IMG/VR virus record: IMGVR_UViG_3300037189_003197
Coordinates: 1-61,748 of that record
DNA length: 61,748 bases
Source: a virus
Direction: 5' to 3' (one strand)
The notes beneath the pieces were generated by a model. The model did not search any database. It was given only the letters and a program-made list of their open reading frames with translations, and was not told where the DNA came from. Both the position numbers and the translations under genes were made by a program. Below, in pieces: positions 27,035-61,748 of the stretch; the first letter of the stretch is position 1, and each line of letters begins with the position of its first letter.

Positions 27035-27793
27035 AGGACTTACCTCCTTAGTTATCTCAATTGTATTAATGCCTTTAGCACTATCAACTAAGAACTTTAT
27101 TACGTCAGAATTATCTGCATCTGTTTTTTCAACAAACCCAATATTCTGCATTGGCTTACCAGATGTTGGACTCACTGCTGAGTCTGAATCTGATAGCAAA
27201 ACCATATCATTTTCTGAATCCCAAAAAACATTTTCAATTTCTGTCTTAGATAGGTATCCGTCAATGGTTGTTTCTCCGTTTACCTTTTCAATAGAAAAAA
27301 TGTTTGCAAACTGATTTGCAGGATTGTCTACTAGTGATAGTTCGTGAAGTTCGTATTCTTTAATGATACGGACGGCTTTGTCCATACCCTCGTTATACTC
27401 GTCATCAAACTTCTTGATGTTACCACCAATAGAAAAGCCTGAGTAAGTTCCATCTAAAACTTTTTCCCAGGCATCTTGTGCACCCTTAGATACATAAGCA
27501 GAAACATAAACACCAGAGTAAAACTTCTTGGTGCCTGGATCAAAATACTTGTCTTCCTTGAATGAAACGATTTTTCCAACAGCAGAAGGCTGGTGCATTT
27601 CACGAAGATTTCCACGGAAGTTTTTAAAAGCATTTAGGCTAGCAGATGTGTCAACCACATCACCCTGCTTGTCTACATTGTCAAGGGTAGCAAATCCAGA
27701 AACGATACGACGTTCCTTATCTACTTTACCAATAGGCATTGACAAACGAACATTGTCGCCGTCAGTCACCCATTGTGCTTTATTAATATTCAT
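26420..27793 (-). CDS. prohead protease fused to scaffold region
   Basis: Serine protease (herpesvirus-like S78/U35 fold) that matures the prohead. The catalytic His is at residue 67 (REMHQPSAVG) and the likely Ser at about 118-121 (YSGFSIGG), followed by the conserved ELSLVDNPAN at about 151-160. Residues about 255-457 are acidic, with Glu/Ala and Asp/Lys repeats (MSKAKSD repeated) and a coiled coil (TVSKAFSDLTETVKSLYEHVSELSKSL), as in scaffolding proteins. Length 457 is longer than a stand-alone protease (about 200), which fits a protease-scaffold fusion. An extended -10 lies at 27803-27811 and SD GAGGGA before the start. Confidence 0.9.
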   Translation of the reverse strand: MNINKAQWVTDGDNVRLSMPIGKVDKERRIVSGFATLDNVDKQGDVVDTSASLNAFKNFRGNLREMHQPSAVGKIVSFKEDKYFDPGTKKFYSGVYVSAYVSKGAQDAWEKVLDGTYSGFSIGGNIKKFDDEYNEGMDKAVRIIKEYELHELSLVDNPANQFANIFSIEKVNGETTIDGYLSKTEIENVFWDSENDMVLLSDSDSAVSPTSGKPMQNIGFVEKTDADNSDVIKFLVDSAKGINTIEITKEVSPMTDATNEAVEVAAEEAVVEEAAVEESQVAPEADTTVESAEASVEKAAKSDDMDMDDKEDEDEDEMSKAKSDKAYGKDEEEDDMSKAKSAMPEDEKTEVAKSDDGFEAAIADVKDTVSKAFSDLTETVKSLYEHVSELSKSLDAVKNDVTASKTVFDEFGKRVDAVVADTAFRKSGDVGDIVQEPEVKVQKSLWGGRFLTNNDLF

Positions 27794-55625: not shown

Positions 55626-55645
55626 TGTGGATAAAATGTGAATAA
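55626..55645. other. pair of DnaA-box-like sites
   Basis: TTATCCACA (55626-55634) and TTATTCACA (55637-55645) are read on the minus strand, 11 bp apart. Both fit the DnaA box TTATNCACA. An AT-rich stretch (55,660-55,780) follows, a candidate unwinding element at the strand switch. Confidence 0.6.
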
Positions 55646-57410: not shown

Positions 57411-57541
57411 TAGTTACACTCTCCGTAAGCGTTGTAGCATAATTCGCAACACTCTTGAGCAAATTCATCTACCCATAATCTAGGAGTGTAGTTATCGCAA
57501 ATCTCGCAAAACTCTACATTTACCATTTCTACTAAGTTCAT
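57410..57541 (-). CDS. zinc-knuckle micropeptide, copy A
   Basis: A 43-residue peptide with CEIC (about 12-15) and CCELC (about 31-35), expected to bind one zinc. Another ATG lies three bases upstream (57544). AAGGAG lies 5-8 nt upstream. It opens the minus-strand unit, is driven by the AATGTC-type promoter at 57588-57613 and is paralogous to 57897-58007 on the other side of the control region. Confidence 0.65.
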   Translation of the reverse strand: MNLVEMVNVEFCEICDNYTPRLWVDEFAQECCELCYNAYGECN

Positions 57542-57587
57542 CATCTGAACTCCTTTCTATTTATCTAATCTTTCTTTCTATACTTAT

Positions 57588-57613
57588 AACCTATCACATA
57601 CCCCCGACATTTT
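57588..57613 (-). promoter_or_regulatory. AATGTC-type promoter (minus-strand copy)
   Basis: AATGTC (57606-57611), 12-nt gap, TAGGTT -10 (57588-57593), preceded by TGTGA. It drives the 57,541 to 57,001 unit. It is one of nine copies of this motif. Confidence 0.65.
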
Positions 57614-57723
57614 GGGTACATTTTGGGGTGTGTTGCGTACAAACTTTTGACCAATTTTTTGTGCCAAGGCTACAATGCTACACCCCGCATAAATACTGGG
57701 CGACACGCCGCAAGCGCCGACCC

Positions 57724-57744
57724 TGTGGATAACTCTGTGGATAA
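57724..57744. other. pair of DnaA-box-like sites
   Basis: Two identical TTATCCACA sequences (minus strand; 57724-57732 and 57736-57744), 12 bp apart. A CGCCGACC element lies just before and AT-rich DNA follows. Confidence 0.6.
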
Positions 57745-57823
57745 CTTATGAATAGGCTACGAAATCCCTGAAAATTCGTTATCAATTTGTTATAAAAAAC
57801 TTTTACAAACACGGCGTGTCGAT

Positions 57824-57852
57824 TTGACTTTGTCCTAGGTCTATGTTAGGTT
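57824..57852 (+). promoter_or_regulatory. AATGTC-type promoter (copy A)
   Basis: TTGACT -35, spacer 17, TAGGTT -10 (57847-57852). The spacer holds TTTGTCCTAGG, with the same 12-nt gap as the other copies. GGCGTGTC lies just upstream. Confidence 0.6.
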
Positions 57853-57896
57853 ATAGATATAAAGATAAATAGAAATAAAAAGAAAGGATGTAAAAG

Positions 57897-58007
57897 ATGA
57901 TTGATTTCAAATTTTGCGAAATAGATGATAACTATGTTCCAACCGTAGAGGTTGATGGCGAGGAAGCTTGCCAGTATTGCTATGAAGCTTATGGTGAAAT
58001 AAACTAA
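57897..58007 (+). CDS. zinc-knuckle micropeptide, copy B
   Basis: A 36-residue acidic peptide. FCEIDDNYVP...CQYCYEAYGE resembles FCEICDNYTP...CCELCYNAYGE of the divergent gene 57410-57541, but the second Cys of the first pair is replaced by Asp. GAAAGGATG-type SD lies upstream. Function unknown. Confidence 0.65.
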   Translation: MIDFKFCEIDDNYVPTVEVDGEEACQYCYEAYGEIN

Positions 58008-58021
58008 GCTAATACGGCGTG

Positions 58022-58064
58022 TCTGCTTGACAGATCGCTAAAAAAATGCCGACCGCATTTTGAT
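58022..58064 (+). repeat. TTGACA hairpin element, copy R1
   Basis: TCTG...CAGA flank TTGACA, then a short A-run and GCCGACCGCATTTTGAT. It is the least conserved copy of the element found at 58287, 59202, 60634 and 61407. Confidence 0.45.
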
Positions 58065-58128
58065 TGTTTTGTCAACAAGACTTTATAAGAATGTCTAAAA
58101 ATTCACTGAAGTTTTTGGCGTGTCGTAT

Positions 58129-58158
58129 TTGACAAATGTCGTAGGTCTGTGATAAGTT
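58129..58158 (+). promoter_or_regulatory. AATGTC-type promoter (copy B)
   Basis: TTGACA, AATGTCGTAGG in the spacer and TAAGTT -10 (58153-58158). GGCGTGTCG lies upstream. It drives the 34-residue gene. Confidence 0.65.
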
Positions 58159-58182
58159 TTAGCTATAACGAAAGGATACCAA

Positions 58183-58287
58183 ATGGATGACTGGAACTGC
58201 ACCACTGAGGAGTTTTTCTGCTTTGAAGGGGAGGCTTACATTGAGCCTGATTGGGATAACGAGCCTCCCAGCTTCTTTGAGGAGTAG
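58183..58287 (+). CDS. acidic micropeptide (34 aa)
   Basis: A strongly acidic 34-residue peptide (MDDWNCTTEEFFCFEGEAYIEPDW...FFEE). The acid content could mimic DNA, but nothing specific is visible. SD GAAAGGA precedes it, and a TTGACA hairpin element starts at its stop codon. Confidence 0.6.
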   Translation: MDDWNCTTEEFFCFEGEAYIEPDWDNEPPSFFEE

Positions 58288-58317
58288 GCTTGACAAGCCC
58301 AGGTAAACCTGGTCGGC
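58287..58317 (+). repeat. TTGACA hairpin element, copy R2
   Basis: GGCTTGACAAGCC, then CCAGG-TAAA-CCTGG, then TCGGC. The first arm pair is GGC/GCC; a DnaA-box pair follows at once. Confidence 0.6.
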
Positions 58318-58319
58318 CC

Positions 58320-58358
58320 TGTGGATAACTATGTGTATAACTCTTTACGTTATCTACA
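58320..58358. other. DnaA-box-like pair plus one variant
   Basis: TTATCCACA (58320-58328) and TTATACACA (58332-58340) on the minus strand, 12 bp apart, and TTATCTACA on the plus strand (58350-58358, one mismatch). Confidence 0.55.
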
Positions 58359-58411
58359 AAAATCCTCACGAAAGTTTTAGGAAATCCACAAAAGAAAATA
58401 GGGCGTTTCTA

Positions 58412-58440
58412 TTGTAAATGTCGTAGGTGTGTGATAGGGT
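58412..58440 (+). promoter_or_regulatory. AATGTC-type promoter (copy C)
   Basis: TTGTAA, AATGTCGTAGG, TAGGGT -10 (58435-58440). Confidence 0.6.
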
Positions 58441-58469
58441 TTTAGTAAGTCAAGAGAAAGAAGGAACAA

Positions 58470-58610
58470 ATGGACAAGATGTGTGTTTACTGCGAGAGCG
58501 TGTTCACAAGCGATACTATCGTTTGCCACAACTGTAATGAGTATGACGGAATGATGCCGTTGGAAAAAGCAATAGACTACCTAAACCTTGACCCTAACGA
58601 CTATCTATAA
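58470..58610 (+). CDS. zinc-ribbon-like small protein (46 aa)
   Basis: A 46-residue protein with CVYC (5-8) and CHNC (about 21-24), a treble-clef-sized zinc ribbon, then an acidic helix. SD GAAGGA precedes the ATG, and the next promoter overlaps its stop codon. Function unknown. Confidence 0.65.
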   Translation: MDKMCVYCESVFTSDTIVCHNCNEYDGMMPLEKAIDYLNLDPNDYL

Positions 58611-58633
58611 ATGTCAGTAGGGTATGCTAGGTT
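58610..58633 (+). promoter_or_regulatory. AATGTC-type promoter (copy D)
   Basis: AATGTC begins on the stop codon of the 46-residue gene; -10 TAGGTT (58628-58633). Confidence 0.6.
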
Positions 58634-58655
58634 AGAACTAACGAAAGGAAATAAA

Positions 58656-58823
58656 ATGGAAAAAGTAGAAACACTAGGAACTAGGGACTTGGTTGAGCTT
58701 GTAAAAGCAACAACAGGTCTAACAGACATTGGCGGTTATTCTTACGCTCTAACCCTTATGTGGGAATTGGCAGACAACAAGCTAAAGAATAAAGTTCTTG
58801 AGCTAATTGAGGAGAGCAACTAA
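58656..58823 (+). CDS. small helical protein
   Basis: A 55-residue protein (EKVETLGTRDLVELVKATTGLTDIGGYSYALTLMWELAD..) predicted helical and amphipathic. ATG 58656 follows GAAAGGA; the earlier in-frame ATG 58611 lies inside the promoter motif, so its peptide is not real. Function unknown. Confidence 0.65.
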   Translation: MEKVETLGTRDLVELVKATTGLTDIGGYSYALTLMWELADNKLKNKVLELIEESN

Positions 58824-58972
58824 TGAACGAGCAAGAGTTTGATGAATTACTTGATGAGCTTTACCCTGTTTACCAAATTGGAGAGCTAACTTTTTACCCT
58901 TCACAAATTCTAAAAGCTTGCGACCCAATTGCTTATCGTATAGGATTGTCAGAGGTTGAGGTTGATGAGTAA
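58823..58972 (+). CDS. small acidic protein (49 aa)
   Basis: A 49-residue acidic protein (NEQEFDELLDELYPVYQIGELTFYPSQIL...) overlapping the previous stop (TAATG) and the next start. Unknown function. Confidence 0.6.
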   Translation: MNEQEFDELLDELYPVYQIGELTFYPSQILKACDPIAYRIGLSEVEVDE

Positions 58973-59060
58973 AGAAGAATTAGAGATGTTGATTTACCAA
59001 ATTGACCTAATGCTAACAGAAAATGTTGGCGAACTATTTACAACACCAGAGGAGAAATAA
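58965..59060 (+). CDS. micropeptide (31 aa)
   Basis: A 31-residue acidic helix (SKEELEMLIYQIDLMLTENVGELF). It overlaps the previous gene by 8 nt. Unknown function. Confidence 0.5.
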   Translation: MSKEELEMLIYQIDLMLTENVGELFTTPEEK

Positions 59061-59062
59061 AA

Positions 59063-59203
59063 ATGGACTACTTGATTTTTGGAATTGTTATTCTAGCTTT
59101 GCTAATTGTTTTTGTTGGAACTCAACTAATGGCAATTTTGTTTTTGATGTCAGAGAACGAGAAGATACAAAAAGAAGCAGAGAAAAACTTTCCGCCTTTT
59201 TGA
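59063..59203 (+). CDS. small single-span membrane protein (46 aa)
   Basis: A hydrophobic N-terminal helix (LIFGIVILALLIVFVGTQLMAILFLM, about residues 4-29) is followed by a charged tail (SENEKIQKEAEKNFPPF). GGAG lies upstream inside the previous gene. A small membrane protein such as a holin partner or superinfection factor is possible. Confidence 0.65.
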   Translation: MDYLIFGIVILALLIVFVGTQLMAILFLMSENEKIQKEAEKNFPPF

Positions 59204-59244
59204 TTTGACAAATCCACCGAAAGGTGGTCGGCACATTTTGATCC
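59202..59244 (+). repeat. TTGACA hairpin element, copy R3
   Basis: GATTTGACAAATC, then CCACC-GAAA-GGTGG and TCGGCACATTTTGATCC. It begins on the stop codon of the membrane protein gene. The first arm is GAT/ATC, versus GGC/GCC in R2. Confidence 0.6.
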
Positions 59245-59292
59245 AAAAGTCAATTACGTAGTCTATTAAAAAAGTCGTGGAATATCCCACAA

Positions 59293-59316
59293 AATGTCAG
59301 TAGTTTGTGTTATTCT
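59293..59316 (+). promoter_or_regulatory. AATGTC-type promoter (copy E)
   Basis: AATGTCAGTAG and TATTCT -10 (59311-59316), with TGT before the -10. Confidence 0.55.
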
Positions 59317-59339
59317 TTTACTACAAGAAAGGAAGCCAA

Positions 59340-59684
59340 ATGAAGAAACTACCCTATGGCAAGACAAGGCTTGAGCGTAGAAAATTCTTAGATTCTTACA
59401 AGATAGGCAAGGGATGTGAAGAATGTGGATACAAAGACTATCCAGAAGCTTTACAGTTAGACCACTTAGACCCTAAGACCAAATACCGCACAAAAAATGG
59501 CAAGACCCTAAATCCAGGAGAAATGATAGGAATGTCTCAAGCTATCTTTTTTGCTGAGCTGAAGAAGTGTCGTGTTATTTGTGCCAACTGCCATGCTGTT
59601 CACACTAAGAAGCAACAGGCTGAAATTAGGATGCTAAACAGTATGCTAGAAATGTCAGAGGGTTATGCTAGGCTATTGGTATGA
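59340..59684 (+). CDS. HNH endonuclease-like protein
   Basis: A 114-residue protein with Cys26-x2-Cys29, the LQLDHLD block (Asp41, His42), and C81AxC84H85xxH88. This is a zinc-stabilised HNH (treble clef) fold; His42 and the last histidine are probable catalytic or metal ligands. HNH proteins are found as homing or packaging-related nucleases. ATG 59340 follows GAAAGGA. The final codons (MSEGYARLLV) are the coding read-through of promoter copy F. Confidence 0.85.
   Translation: MKKLPYGKTRLERRKFLDSYKIGKGCEECGYKDYPEALQLDHLDPKTKYRTKNGKTLNPGEMIGMSQAIFFAELKKCRVICANCHAVHTKKQQAEIRMLNSMLEMSEGYARLLV
59651..59674 (+). promoter_or_regulatory. AATGTC-type promoter (copy F), inside HNH gene
   Basis: AATGTCAGAGG and TAGGCT -10 (59669-59674) overlap the end of the HNH coding sequence. 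The -10 ends 6 nt before ATG 59681, giving a leaderless start. Confidence 0.6.
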
Positions 59685-59842
59685 TAGGTAAAAGAAATGA
59701 AGCAAGACGCAAGGCAGAAAGCCAAGCGCTATTCCAGTCTATGCTAAAAGCCCCTCACCTAGTAGAAACCCCAAAGAAATACAAAGGCACACGCCAAAGC
59801 AACAAAGTAAACGCTATCAAAGAAAGTAGAGCTAATGGTTAG
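59681..59842 (+). CDS. basic small protein (53 aa)
   Basis: A 53-residue Lys/Arg-rich protein (GKRNEARRKAESQALFQSML...KYKGTRQSNKVNAIKESRANG), likely nucleic-acid binding by charge. Leaderless start. It overlaps the HNH gene by four bases and the next gene by eight. Confidence 0.6.
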   Translation: MIGKRNEARRKAESQALFQSMLKAPHLVETPKKYKGTRQSNKVNAIKESRANG

Positions 59843-59978
59843 TTATGTATGCGAAGACTGTAGAAAGTTCGTTCACTCAGATACAGTGTATGGCTATCTA
59901 CTCAAGAATGTCTGTGGTAGATGTTATGCTATTTATGCTAATCACCCCTCAACAAGAAAGCTGGTAAAGAATGTTTGA
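59835..59978 (+). CDS. zinc-ribbon-like small protein (47 aa)
   Basis: A 47-residue protein with CEDC (6-9) and CGRC (27-30), a probable zinc ribbon, followed by a basic tail (NHPSTRKLVKNV). Function unknown. Confidence 0.65.
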   Translation: MVSYVCEDCRKFVHSDTVYGYLLKNVCGRCYAIYANHPSTRKLVKNV

Positions 59979-60066
59979 GAATGTAATCAACGAAGAAGCT
60001 ATTGAAGCCCTAAGCGAAGATGCTATTGATGAGCTATTGGCTATGTTTGAGAAGGCAGGATACTAG
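59971..60066 (+). CDS. acidic micropeptide (31 aa)
   Basis: A 31-residue acidic helix (FENVINEEAIEALSEDAIDELLAMFEKAGY), overlapping neighbours on both sides. Unknown function. Confidence 0.55.
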   Translation: MFENVINEEAIEALSEDAIDELLAMFEKAGY

Positions 60067-60191
60067 TGTTAGGACAACTAAGCGTTCACTTTTGTGAAAC
60101 CTGTTGTGAGTTTGGTATGGTGTCAGTAGTCAATGGTAAACTAATGGTTCAGTATTGTGATTGTGAAACAGAAACAGTAGAAGGAGAATAG
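60066..60191 (+). CDS. Cys-pair small protein (41 aa)
   Basis: A 41-residue protein starting with GTG (TAGTG overlap), with CETCC (10-14) and CDC (about 33-35), a zinc-binding-like pattern. Unknown function. Confidence 0.55.
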   Translation: MLGQLSVHFCETCCEFGMVSVVNGKLMVQYCDCETETVEGE

Positions 60192-60193
60192 CA

Positions 60194-60481
60194 ATGGGAA
60201 TGTCAACAGCAATGGGCATAGCAGGAACAGAAGTATCCTTAGAGCAACAACTAGCAATGCACTTTAGTAGTAATTGTTATCCACCAATTCCTAGCAAGAT
60301 GATACCAGTAGCGAAGATGGCTATCTTCCACTATTGGGAACAAGACTATCATGCCATGGTTGAGCTACCAGAAGGCGTAGAGTTTAGAAATGGAGCAACC
60401 TCCATTCCTGCAAGTCAAGTTATTGAGTCACTTAGACTTGACGCTTGGGTAATGGAAGACGAAGAAGGAGAGGAATACTAA
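60194..60481 (+). CDS. conserved-looking 95-residue phage protein
   Basis: A 95-residue protein with SLEQQLAMHFSSNCYPPIPSKMIPVAKMAIFHYWEQDYHAMVELP. The mix of a helix with an FHYWEQDY strand suggests a small globular protein; the C-terminus is acidic (EDEEGEEY). AAGGAG precedes the ATG. Unknown function. Confidence 0.7.
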   Translation: MGMSTAMGIAGTEVSLEQQLAMHFSSNCYPPIPSKMIPVAKMAIFHYWEQDYHAMVELPEGVEFRNGATSIPASQVIESLRLDAWVMEDEEGEEY

Positions 60482-60627
60482 TGGCGTATCTAACTAACAC
60501 TTGGTATGTTGAGTATCAAGATGGATCAATTGAGCCCGTTGCTAATCTGGCTACTGCCAGGCACTTGGTGATGTCTAATGTTGCTATTAGAATTGTAGAC
60601 ACTAACAGAATGTTAGCAACAGCCTAA
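60481..60627 (+). CDS. small beta-rich protein (48 aa)
   Basis: A 48-residue protein (AYLTNTWYVEYQDGSIEPVANLATARHLVMSN). ATG 60481 overlaps the upstream stop (TAATG). An earlier ATG gives an implausible Arg-rich start. Unknown function. Confidence 0.6.
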   Translation: MAYLTNTWYVEYQDGSIEPVANLATARHLVMSNVAIRIVDTNRMLATA

Positions 60628-60633
60628 ATAATA

Positions 60634-60672
60634 GACTTGACAAGTCCCCTGAAAAGGGGCCGACCAGATTTT
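60634..60672 (+). repeat. TTGACA hairpin element, copy R4
   Basis: GACTTGACAAGTC, then CCCC-TGAAAA-GGGG and CCGACCAGATTTTG. The first arm is GAC/GTC, again covarying. Confidence 0.6.
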
Positions 60673-60724
60673 GCTGCAGATGTCAAATTAAGAATGTTTA
60701 AGAAACCCCTGAAAGATCCTTAGA

Positions 60725-60748
60725 AATGTCAGAGGGTATTGCTAAAAT
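60725..60748 (+). promoter_or_regulatory. AATGTC-type promoter (copy G)
   Basis: AATGTCAGAGG and TAAAAT -10 (60743-60748), preceded by TTGC. Confidence 0.65.
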
Positions 60749-60772
60749 AATCTTATAAACGAAAGGACCCCA

Positions 60773-61291
60773 ATGGACTACTATGCAGCATACACAGGAA
60801 TAGTAAAGAGCGCTACTTTTGGACAAGTAGAGCAAGCAAGTAAATGGTACGTAGACGCAGAGCGTATTGCAGAGAAGGTTGCAGAAAACCTAAACACTAC
60901 TCTAGAGGTTGGTGCAAGTGTTGTTTCTGCATTCTCACCTAGAGAGCGTTGGTCAGTAAATGTTGCTAGGGCTATTGCTTGGTCATTAGGGCAGGATGTT
61001 GCTTGTCTAAAGAATAACCTAGTAATGGCTAACAATGCCTTGACACTTGGCTTTGGTGCTTTGAAGGGTATGAAAACTAATGCATTCGCTAAGGCTATTG
61101 CAGGTGATGAGCAAGCTGTCGTGATTGATGTATGGATGTTACGGGCAGTTGGAATTGAGCGTAAGACACCTAACCAGTCTCAATACAATGAGCTAGTAGA
61201 GGCAGTAAAGAAAACCGCATTTGATTTTGGTATGACACCTAGAGCAATGCAAGCCCTAATCTGGATTGTAGTTAGAGGGAGTGCCCAGTGA
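60773..61291 (+). CDS. HhH-GPD-like conserved phage protein (possible DNA glycosylase fold)
   Basis: A 172-residue mostly helical protein. VVSAFSPRERWSVNVARAIAW is followed by VVIDVWMLRAVG, and the spacing of an Asp before WM..R resembles the catalytic region of HhH-GPD glycosylases. AMQALIWIVVRGSAQ closes it. Lys in the helix-hairpin-helix and full iron-sulphur Cys are not seen, so glycosylase activity is uncertain; a DNA-binding protein is also possible. SD GAAAGGA; driven by promoter copy G. Confidence 0.6.
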   Translation: MDYYAAYTGIVKSATFGQVEQASKWYVDAERIAEKVAENLNTTLEVGASVVSAFSPRERWSVNVARAIAWSLGQDVACLKNNLVMANNALTLGFGALKGMKTNAFAKAIAGDEQAVVIDVWMLRAVGIERKTPNQSQYNELVEAVKKTAFDFGMTPRAMQALIWIVVRGSAQ

Positions 61292-61320
61292 TTGACAAGT
61301 TAGGTAGATTGTGAGATAAT
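61292..61320 (+). promoter_or_regulatory. consensus-like promoter of 22-residue peptide
   Basis: TTGACA (61292-61297), 17-nt spacer, GATAAT (61315-61320), 8 nt to ATG 61329. Confidence 0.6.
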
Positions 61321-61328
61321 GGTAGACT

Positions 61329-61397
61329 ATGGAAATTATAATACTCTCTCTAGCCCTAATTGCCCTAATGATACTCTGGTTAGCAGGAGCTAACTAA
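61329..61397 (+). CDS. single-span membrane micropeptide (22 aa)
   Basis: Encodes MEIIILSLALIALMILWLAG plus AN, one hydrophobic helix. It has its own near-consensus promoter and no Shine-Dalgarno, with 8 nt from -10 to ATG. Like the two 26-residue peptides at 56,570 and 56,805. Confidence 0.55.
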   Translation: MEIIILSLALIALMILWLAGAN

Positions 61398-61406
61398 ATA
61401 CCCTGG

Positions 61407-61451
61407 CCCCTTGACAAAAGGGGTACAGGTGTGCCGACCACATTCCGATCC
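61407..61451 (+). repeat. TTGACA hairpin element, copy R5
   Basis: CCCCTTGACAAAAGGGG, then GTGCCGACCACATTCCGATCC. A longer first arm but the same TTGACA core and CGAC end as the other copies. Confidence 0.55.
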
Positions 61452-61517
61452 TAAAATCAAGTTACGAAGTATAACGATTTTCCCCCAGAAATGTTATAAA
61501 TAAATTGCTAAATAGAG

Positions 61518-61546
61518 TTGATAATGTCGTAGGGTTAGGCTACAAT
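61518..61546 (+). promoter_or_regulatory. AATGTC-type promoter (copy H)
   Basis: TTGATA (61518-61523), AATGTCGTAGGG and TACAAT -10 (61541-61546), 17-nt spacer. The transcript would start near the TATCAAC/GTTGATA hairpin at 61552-61569. Confidence 0.7.
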
Positions 61547-61551
61547 AGAGC

Positions 61552-61569
61552 TATCAACAAAAGTTGATA
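61552..61569 (+). other. 5' leader hairpin (TATCAAC / GTTGATA)
   Basis: A perfect 7-bp inverted repeat with AAAA loop at the predicted transcript start of copy H. It could protect the mRNA 5' end or be an operator. Confidence 0.5.
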
Positions 61570-61596
61570 ATCAAAATAAAATAGATAGGAAGCAAA

Positions 61597-61748
61597 ATGT
61601 CAAACACCACTCTAACTGTTGGCTCACAGTTCACCACCGCCAAGTCAAAGGTATCTGGCGTAATTGAGGAAATCGTAAAGAACCCTAGTGGCTCTGCTCG
61701 TGTCAAGCTCAATGTAAATGGACAGACTCGCTGGACTACTGTAAAGTA
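61597..61748 (+). CDS. hypothetical phage protein, 3' end cut by window edge
   Basis: Starts MSNTTLTVGSQFTTAKSKVSGVIEE and continues VKNPSGSARVKLNVNGQTRWTTVK, a strand-rich small protein fragment (about 50 residues visible). The ATG follows a GATAGGAA ribosome site and a long leader from promoter copy H. Function not recognised. Confidence 0.65.
   Translation, partial: MSNTTLTVGSQFTTAKSKVSGVIEEIVKNPSGSARVKLNVNGQTRWTTVK

Follow-up and report, generated by a model that had tools for sequence, protein, structure and literature searches.

The right arm of an uncultured viral genome carries a recurrent promoter-like element ahead of its small genes, which raises the question of what factor reads it. 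The arm belongs to IMG/VR virus record IMGVR_UViG_3300037189_003197, a linear contig of 61,748 nt (the window, analysed at its full length) that is cut within dnaE at its left end and within the small-gene arm at its right end. A first-pass annotation of the window had reported nine copies of AATGTC or TTTGTC, each followed after exactly 12 nt by a -10-like TANNNT. We examined these copies together with 69 related loci or contigs in IMG/VR, found via the DUF7178 gene at 60773–61291 (the relatives). The promoter class is real and widespread, and its reader is probably a host transcription activator, PafBC or a factor like it.

A TGTC element at fixed spacing from the -10

WWTGTC-N12-TANNNT gave 12 matches in the window, compared with a mean of 3.83 and a maximum of 7 in 100 shuffles, and all nine reported copies were among them. 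The last 4.2 kb (57500–61748) contained 10 of the matches, against a mean of 0.25 and a maximum of 3 in 2000 first-order Markov simulations; when a pyrimidine-A at positions 29–30 was added to the pattern, nine matches were retained (Markov mean 0.04, maximum 2). The remaining 57.5 kb held only two, at 27723 (minus) and 48356 (plus), both without the pyrimidine-A.

The relatives showed the same spacing. On their forward strand, AATGTC was followed by TANNNT 501 times at a spacing of 12, versus 3–85 times at each other spacing from 4 to 25, and the 85 matches at a spacing of 7 probably reflect TAs within the motif itself. A control over the IMG/VR collection gave a similar picture: AATGTCRGTGG-N4-TGNTANNNT was found in at least 120 stretches, and with one extra base in 7 in all. 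The mycobacterial form, TTTGTCRGTGG-N4-TGNTANNNT, also occurred in at least 120 stretches. At the correct spacing, the 222 stretches fetched for it contained 732 stringent sites, and at +1 they contained none; example sites had typical promoter–leader–ribosome-binding site layouts. The pyrimidine-A at the start was weaker in contigs selected by pattern (0.59 in the AATGTC scan and 0.37 in the TTTGTC scan) than in the DUF7178 relatives (0.79). One high-GC match (L323) was discounted because it probably arose by chance.

Position and fine structure of the element

We pooled 526 distinct sites from the window and the relatives. Their consensus was W-A-T-G-T-C, N, G/T, A/T, then GG or CC, with TG-N-TANNNT as the -10; the recurrent bases that had been described in the gap as [GA]TAGGG and TGNTA resolve instead to TGTC-N-(G/T)-(A/T)-(GG or CC)...TG-N-TANNNT. 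Positions 29–30, 7 nt after the -10, were pyrimidine-A (A in 84%). An ATG stood at position 30 in 84 sites and at position 31 in 24, versus 0–8 at each of positions 24–29, and 80 of the 84 ATGs at position 30 opened an open reading frame (ORF) of at least 30 codons. Genes with the ATG at position 30 look leaderless, which would fix the transcription start (+1). Counted from this predicted start, TGTC occupies -28 to -25. Without presupposing TGTC, we found it before 370 of 748 TGNTANNNT-N5-YA positions, whereas the next 4-mer stood before 8.

The first-pass annotation had also seen a weak -35 such as TTGACA at most copies. This was not borne out: the -35 to -30 region had no consensus in the 526 sites, and in the window such a box was clear only at 57829 and 58135. 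TTGACA matched at five or more of its six bases in 79 cases (58 and 21 at two offsets), and was rejected as a general promoter part since no -35 consensus exists. Because of the start-site signature, the leaderless ATGs and the missing -35, the constant part is, as read from the DNA, the "TGTC" -26 element of a sigma-A promoter in which the -35 box has been replaced. The notion of a promoter family under a shared regulator is strongly supported. In silico, the pyrimidine-A and the leaderless ATGs point to the aligned starts that had been expected from transcript mapping.

Chance recurrence, or shared coding sequence, could be argued from one of the ten arm matches, at 59907, which is coding, and from the two scattered matches in the left 57 kb. 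We give this explanation practically no credence because of the shuffles, the Markov model, and the +1-spacing and start-site controls, which uphold the exact 12-nt spacing as beyond chance. The match at 59907 was itself rejected as a promoter: it reads AAT GTC TGT GGT AGA TGT TAT GCT (NVCGRCYA) in a zinc-ribbon-like ORF whose coding is conserved in relatives, and it has no start-site signature.

The sites might also be plain extended -10 sigma-A promoters, with TGTC read by RNA polymerase itself or acting as a DNA-shape feature, and no activator. The TG of the extended -10, present in 54% of GG-type and 77% of CC-type sites, would fit such promoters. This explanation is nevertheless improbable: the TG is missing from 46% of GG-type sites, the arm of a related Streptomyces phage uses -35 boxes instead, and we know of no polymerase contact that reads a four-base word at -28 to -25.

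Concentration of the promoters in one arm

In most of the whole relative records, the sites concentrated on a single strand. One relative (G002) is complete, with 124,540 bp and 8.5-kb direct terminal repeats, and the ends of two others (G029 and G010) overlap over a short length, as would fit complete assemblies. Each of these three genomes had its sites concentrated in a single small-gene arm. Between 112.4 and 119.1 kb of G002, a promoter preceded nearly every unit with room for one, with a start-to-gene distance of 0–72. None of the later arm genes (119.3–121.5 kb) had one, and outside the arm a promoter preceded 1 of 123 genes.

This distribution bears on an alternative in which a phage repressor binds the element as its operator or stoperator, and the location within ordinary sigma-A promoters is incidental. 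Phages of actinobacteria are known to have a single asymmetric repressor site repeated many times in the same orientation; the L5-type stoperators resemble the present sites in being numerous, asymmetric and of one orientation within a single mycobacteriophage genome. The element described here differs in its fixed distance from a -10 and a start and in being almost absent elsewhere. A repressor site is improbable, given that the element keeps one distance from the -10 and the start across 500 sites, that no -35 is available to account for promoter strength, and that sites are almost absent away from the promoters of one arm.

GG and CC forms of the element

The second half of the -26 element was GG in 219 sites and CC in 218, and GC or CG in only 21, where independent columns would give about 220 mixed sites. 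Individual phages had GG only, CC only or both; the window is among the GG-only phages, with copies of GG or AG type. RGTGG was the commonest GG-type form in the relatives, and the CC type (AGACC) was equally frequent overall. At the orthologous DUF7178 promoter, the GG/CC state changed at least six times on a quick tree, and sister rows differed (L016 CC, L017 GG). The two forms may therefore be equivalent to a single reader. In another relative (G011, L034), the triplet after AATGTCC(A/T) varied (AGG, ACC, CCC) at many sites of the arm at about 59.8–71.7 kb, which makes a third dialect.

PafBC as the probable reader

PafBC-dependent (RecA-NDp) promoters serve the DNA-damage regulon of actinobacteria. 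The PafBC promoter has been described as tTGTCRgtg-8nt-TannnT (PMC5656591), and its M. tuberculosis form has been relaxed to TGTCGG, TGTCAG or TGTCAC-N10-TA-N3-T (PMC8151990). The -26 motif is recognised via PafB, sigma-A domain 4 is contacted via PafC, and the activator responds to single-stranded DNA (ssDNA) (PMC11804915). The phage promoters share with this class the TGTC core, the 12 nt to TANNNT, the position near -26 and the lack of a -35 requirement, and many relatives have the strict RGTGG. They differ in lying in a phage arm rather than ahead of repair genes, and their CC variant equals GG in frequency. As far as sequence can tell, they are PafBC-like except for the strictness of the bases after TGTC; their membership in the PafBC class is putative.

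The first-pass annotation had proposed a phage regulator or an unusual sigma factor as the reader. The records do not favour either: Sigma70_r2 (PF04542) was absent from all 38 records searched (the window and relatives, some of them fragments) and was found in 10 control genomes, and no WYL domain was detected in 30 phage records. The layout is that of a host activator's promoter, PafBC's, used with the housekeeping sigma. A WhiB gene was present in 28 of the 38 records, in some within or near the arm, though not in the window fragment. WhiB has been described as exclusive to Actinobacteriota (PMC10202952), and its carriage in so many records supports actinobacterial hosts, which were probably freshwater actinobacteria. 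Contig CAISOH010000013.1, binned in a Bacteroidetes metagenome-assembled genome, encodes an HNH-type protein like that at 59340–59684 of the window and carries three copies of the motif; it resembles part of a phage genome from the same group. It was dropped as a host clue, since a contig that is itself phage-like gives no host.

Judging from sequence and from analogy with the known regulon, we consider it probable that the host's PafBC, or a WYL factor resembling it, drives the arm promoters together with sigma-A. PafBC, a heterodimeric WYL activator, or a close host relative would connect region 4 of sigma-A with the -26 element by sigma adaptation, under which a missing -35 consensus is expected. 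The presumed trigger is ssDNA made during infection, which would activate PafBC and switch on the arm; nucleases encoded in the arm, the product of the HNH gene behind promoter 6 among them, could set up a positive feedback. The small-gene arm probably comprises the early genes. More tentatively, a large group of uncultured WhiB-carrying actinophages (well over 100 viral contigs, with up to about 30 promoters per genome) may run their early genes on host ssDNA-activated PafBC, so that a damage alarm serves as the infection-start switch and GG and CC are equivalent to the reader.

Several observations weigh against PafBC. The base ahead of TGTC is mostly A, not T as in the PafBC motif. None of the nine window copies has the strict RGTG after TGTC, and five are TGTCRG. 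Half of all sites are of the CC type (TGTCAGACCC), a form not described for PafBC in the papers cited above, and a scan of the bacterial genome collection for the strict CC form yielded only the phage-like contig CAISOH010000013.1. Most of the named Mycobacterium, Rhodococcus and Streptomyces phages that were sampled also lacked the array.

Alternatively, the phage itself might encode the activator that reads the -26 element with sigma-A, either a WhiB-like protein or some small DNA-binding protein that has escaped recognition; the arm would then be a delayed-early or middle regulon under phage control, and its likeness to PafBC promoters would be superficial. The WhiB genes in most records, some of them in or near the arm, the near confinement of the CC form to phages and the many arm genes without a known family agree with this, but we regard it as unlikely. 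The first-expressed genes require a promoter that the host can read, and a layout shared with a host regulon would be a coincidence. To our knowledge, WhiB proteins do not read a TGTC -26 element.

If PafBC is the reader, a likely transcription switch can be named for a widespread actinophage group with hardly any experimental system, the starts of arm genes are predicted at base resolution, and a host repair regulator is predicted to be a phage susceptibility factor. The hundreds of natural sequence variants form a library for dissecting -26 recognition, and the GG/CC equivalence would be a dialect that the cited papers do not describe for PafBC. We found no report of PafBC-driven or PafBC-type phage promoters in the open-access literature, subscription papers and preprints being outside the scope of that search.

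Comparison with named phages

Megablast of the last 21.7 kb of the window and parts of two relatives against INPHARED gave no match, and the promoter family was not found in Shagrat, Zooman, Patience, Herbertwm or phiC31. The portal protein was 46% identical to that of Streptomyces phage Yaboi. Yaboi and LilMartin (Stanwilliamsviridae) resemble the present group in their long terminal repeats, a small-gene arm opposed to the structural genes and a promoter before most units. The arm promoters of Yaboi differ in having GTTG-type -35 boxes and no constant TGTC, whereas four arm promoters of LilMartin have TGTC-N12-TANNNT and keep a -35-like element.

The Microbacterium phages Savannah, Fireman, Ariadne and Sunny (L359–L362), for which cultured hosts exist, offer another comparison. 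Most of the regions upstream of their exonuclease and ERF recombinase genes contain TGTC-N-GACCC, or a closely similar element, followed 12 nt later by a TA, as in the CC form. They differ in having at most two copies in the stretches examined, a start-site A one base earlier and an overlapping CTAA-N6-TTAG palindrome. These elements could be CC-type promoters or repressor operators, and their membership in the family is only a lead.

Promoters and genes of the window

The nine window promoters, all with T-A at positions 29–30, are listed in Table 1 with the look-alike at 59907.

Table 1. Predicted promoters of the right arm, with inferred starts and the genes they would drive.
Feature	Sequence (TGTC -26 element and -10)	Position	Strand	Inferred start	Predicted gene(s) and remarks
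Promoter 1	AATGTCGGGGGTATGTGATAGGTT	57588..57611	minus	57581	44-aa gene 57544–57410
Promoter 2	TTTGTCCTAGGTCTATGTTAGGTT	57829..57852	plus	57859	36-aa gene 57897–58007; TTGAC directly upstream
Promoter 3	AATGTCGTAGGTCTGTGATAAGTT	58135..58158	plus	58165	34-aa gene 58183–58287; TTGACA directly upstream
Promoter 4	AATGTCGTAGGTGTGTGATAGGGT	58417..58440	plus	58447	46-aa zinc-ribbon-like gene 58470–58610 (weak zinc-ribbon match, below cut-off)
Promoter 5	AATGTCAGTAGGGTATGCTAGGTT	58610..58633	plus	58640	Unit 58656–58823, 58823–58972, 59063–59203 (putative operon)
Promoter 6	AATGTCAGTAGTTTGTGTTATTCT	59293..59316	plus	59323	HNH endonuclease-like gene 59340–59684 (PHROGs, E 7.8e-20)
Promoter 7	AATGTCAGAGGGTTATGCTAGGCT	59651..59674	plus	59681	Within 3' end of HNH gene; start is A of ATG; leaderless 53-aa ORF 59681–59842 (read directly from the sequence) and following genes
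Promoter 8	AATGTCAGAGGGTATTGCTAAAAT	60725..60748	plus	60755	DUF7178 gene 60773–61291; orthologous promoter kept in relatives
Promoter 9	AATGTCGTAGGGTTAGGCTACAAT	61523..61546	plus	61553	Gene from 61596, running off the record
Look-alike, not counted as promoter		59907..59930	plus		In-frame Cys-rich ORF (NVCGRCYA); no A at position 30

The products of the divergent genes under promoters 1 and 2 are small acidic proteins that look similar (FCEI.DNY.P...AYGE.N). GGTCGGC/GCCGACC occurred in the window only in the right arm, at 57716, 58048, 58311, 59226, 60659 and 61433, mostly after small hairpins and 60–120 bp ahead of a promoter; it was absent or rare in the more distant complete relatives. Folding of the hairpins between units revealed no consistent excess stability. 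DnaA-box-like TGTGGATAA words, all in the same orientation, were found at 55626, 57724, 57736 and 58320. Three of the four lie near divergent promoters where transcription changes strand, and the cluster is a possible replication origin.

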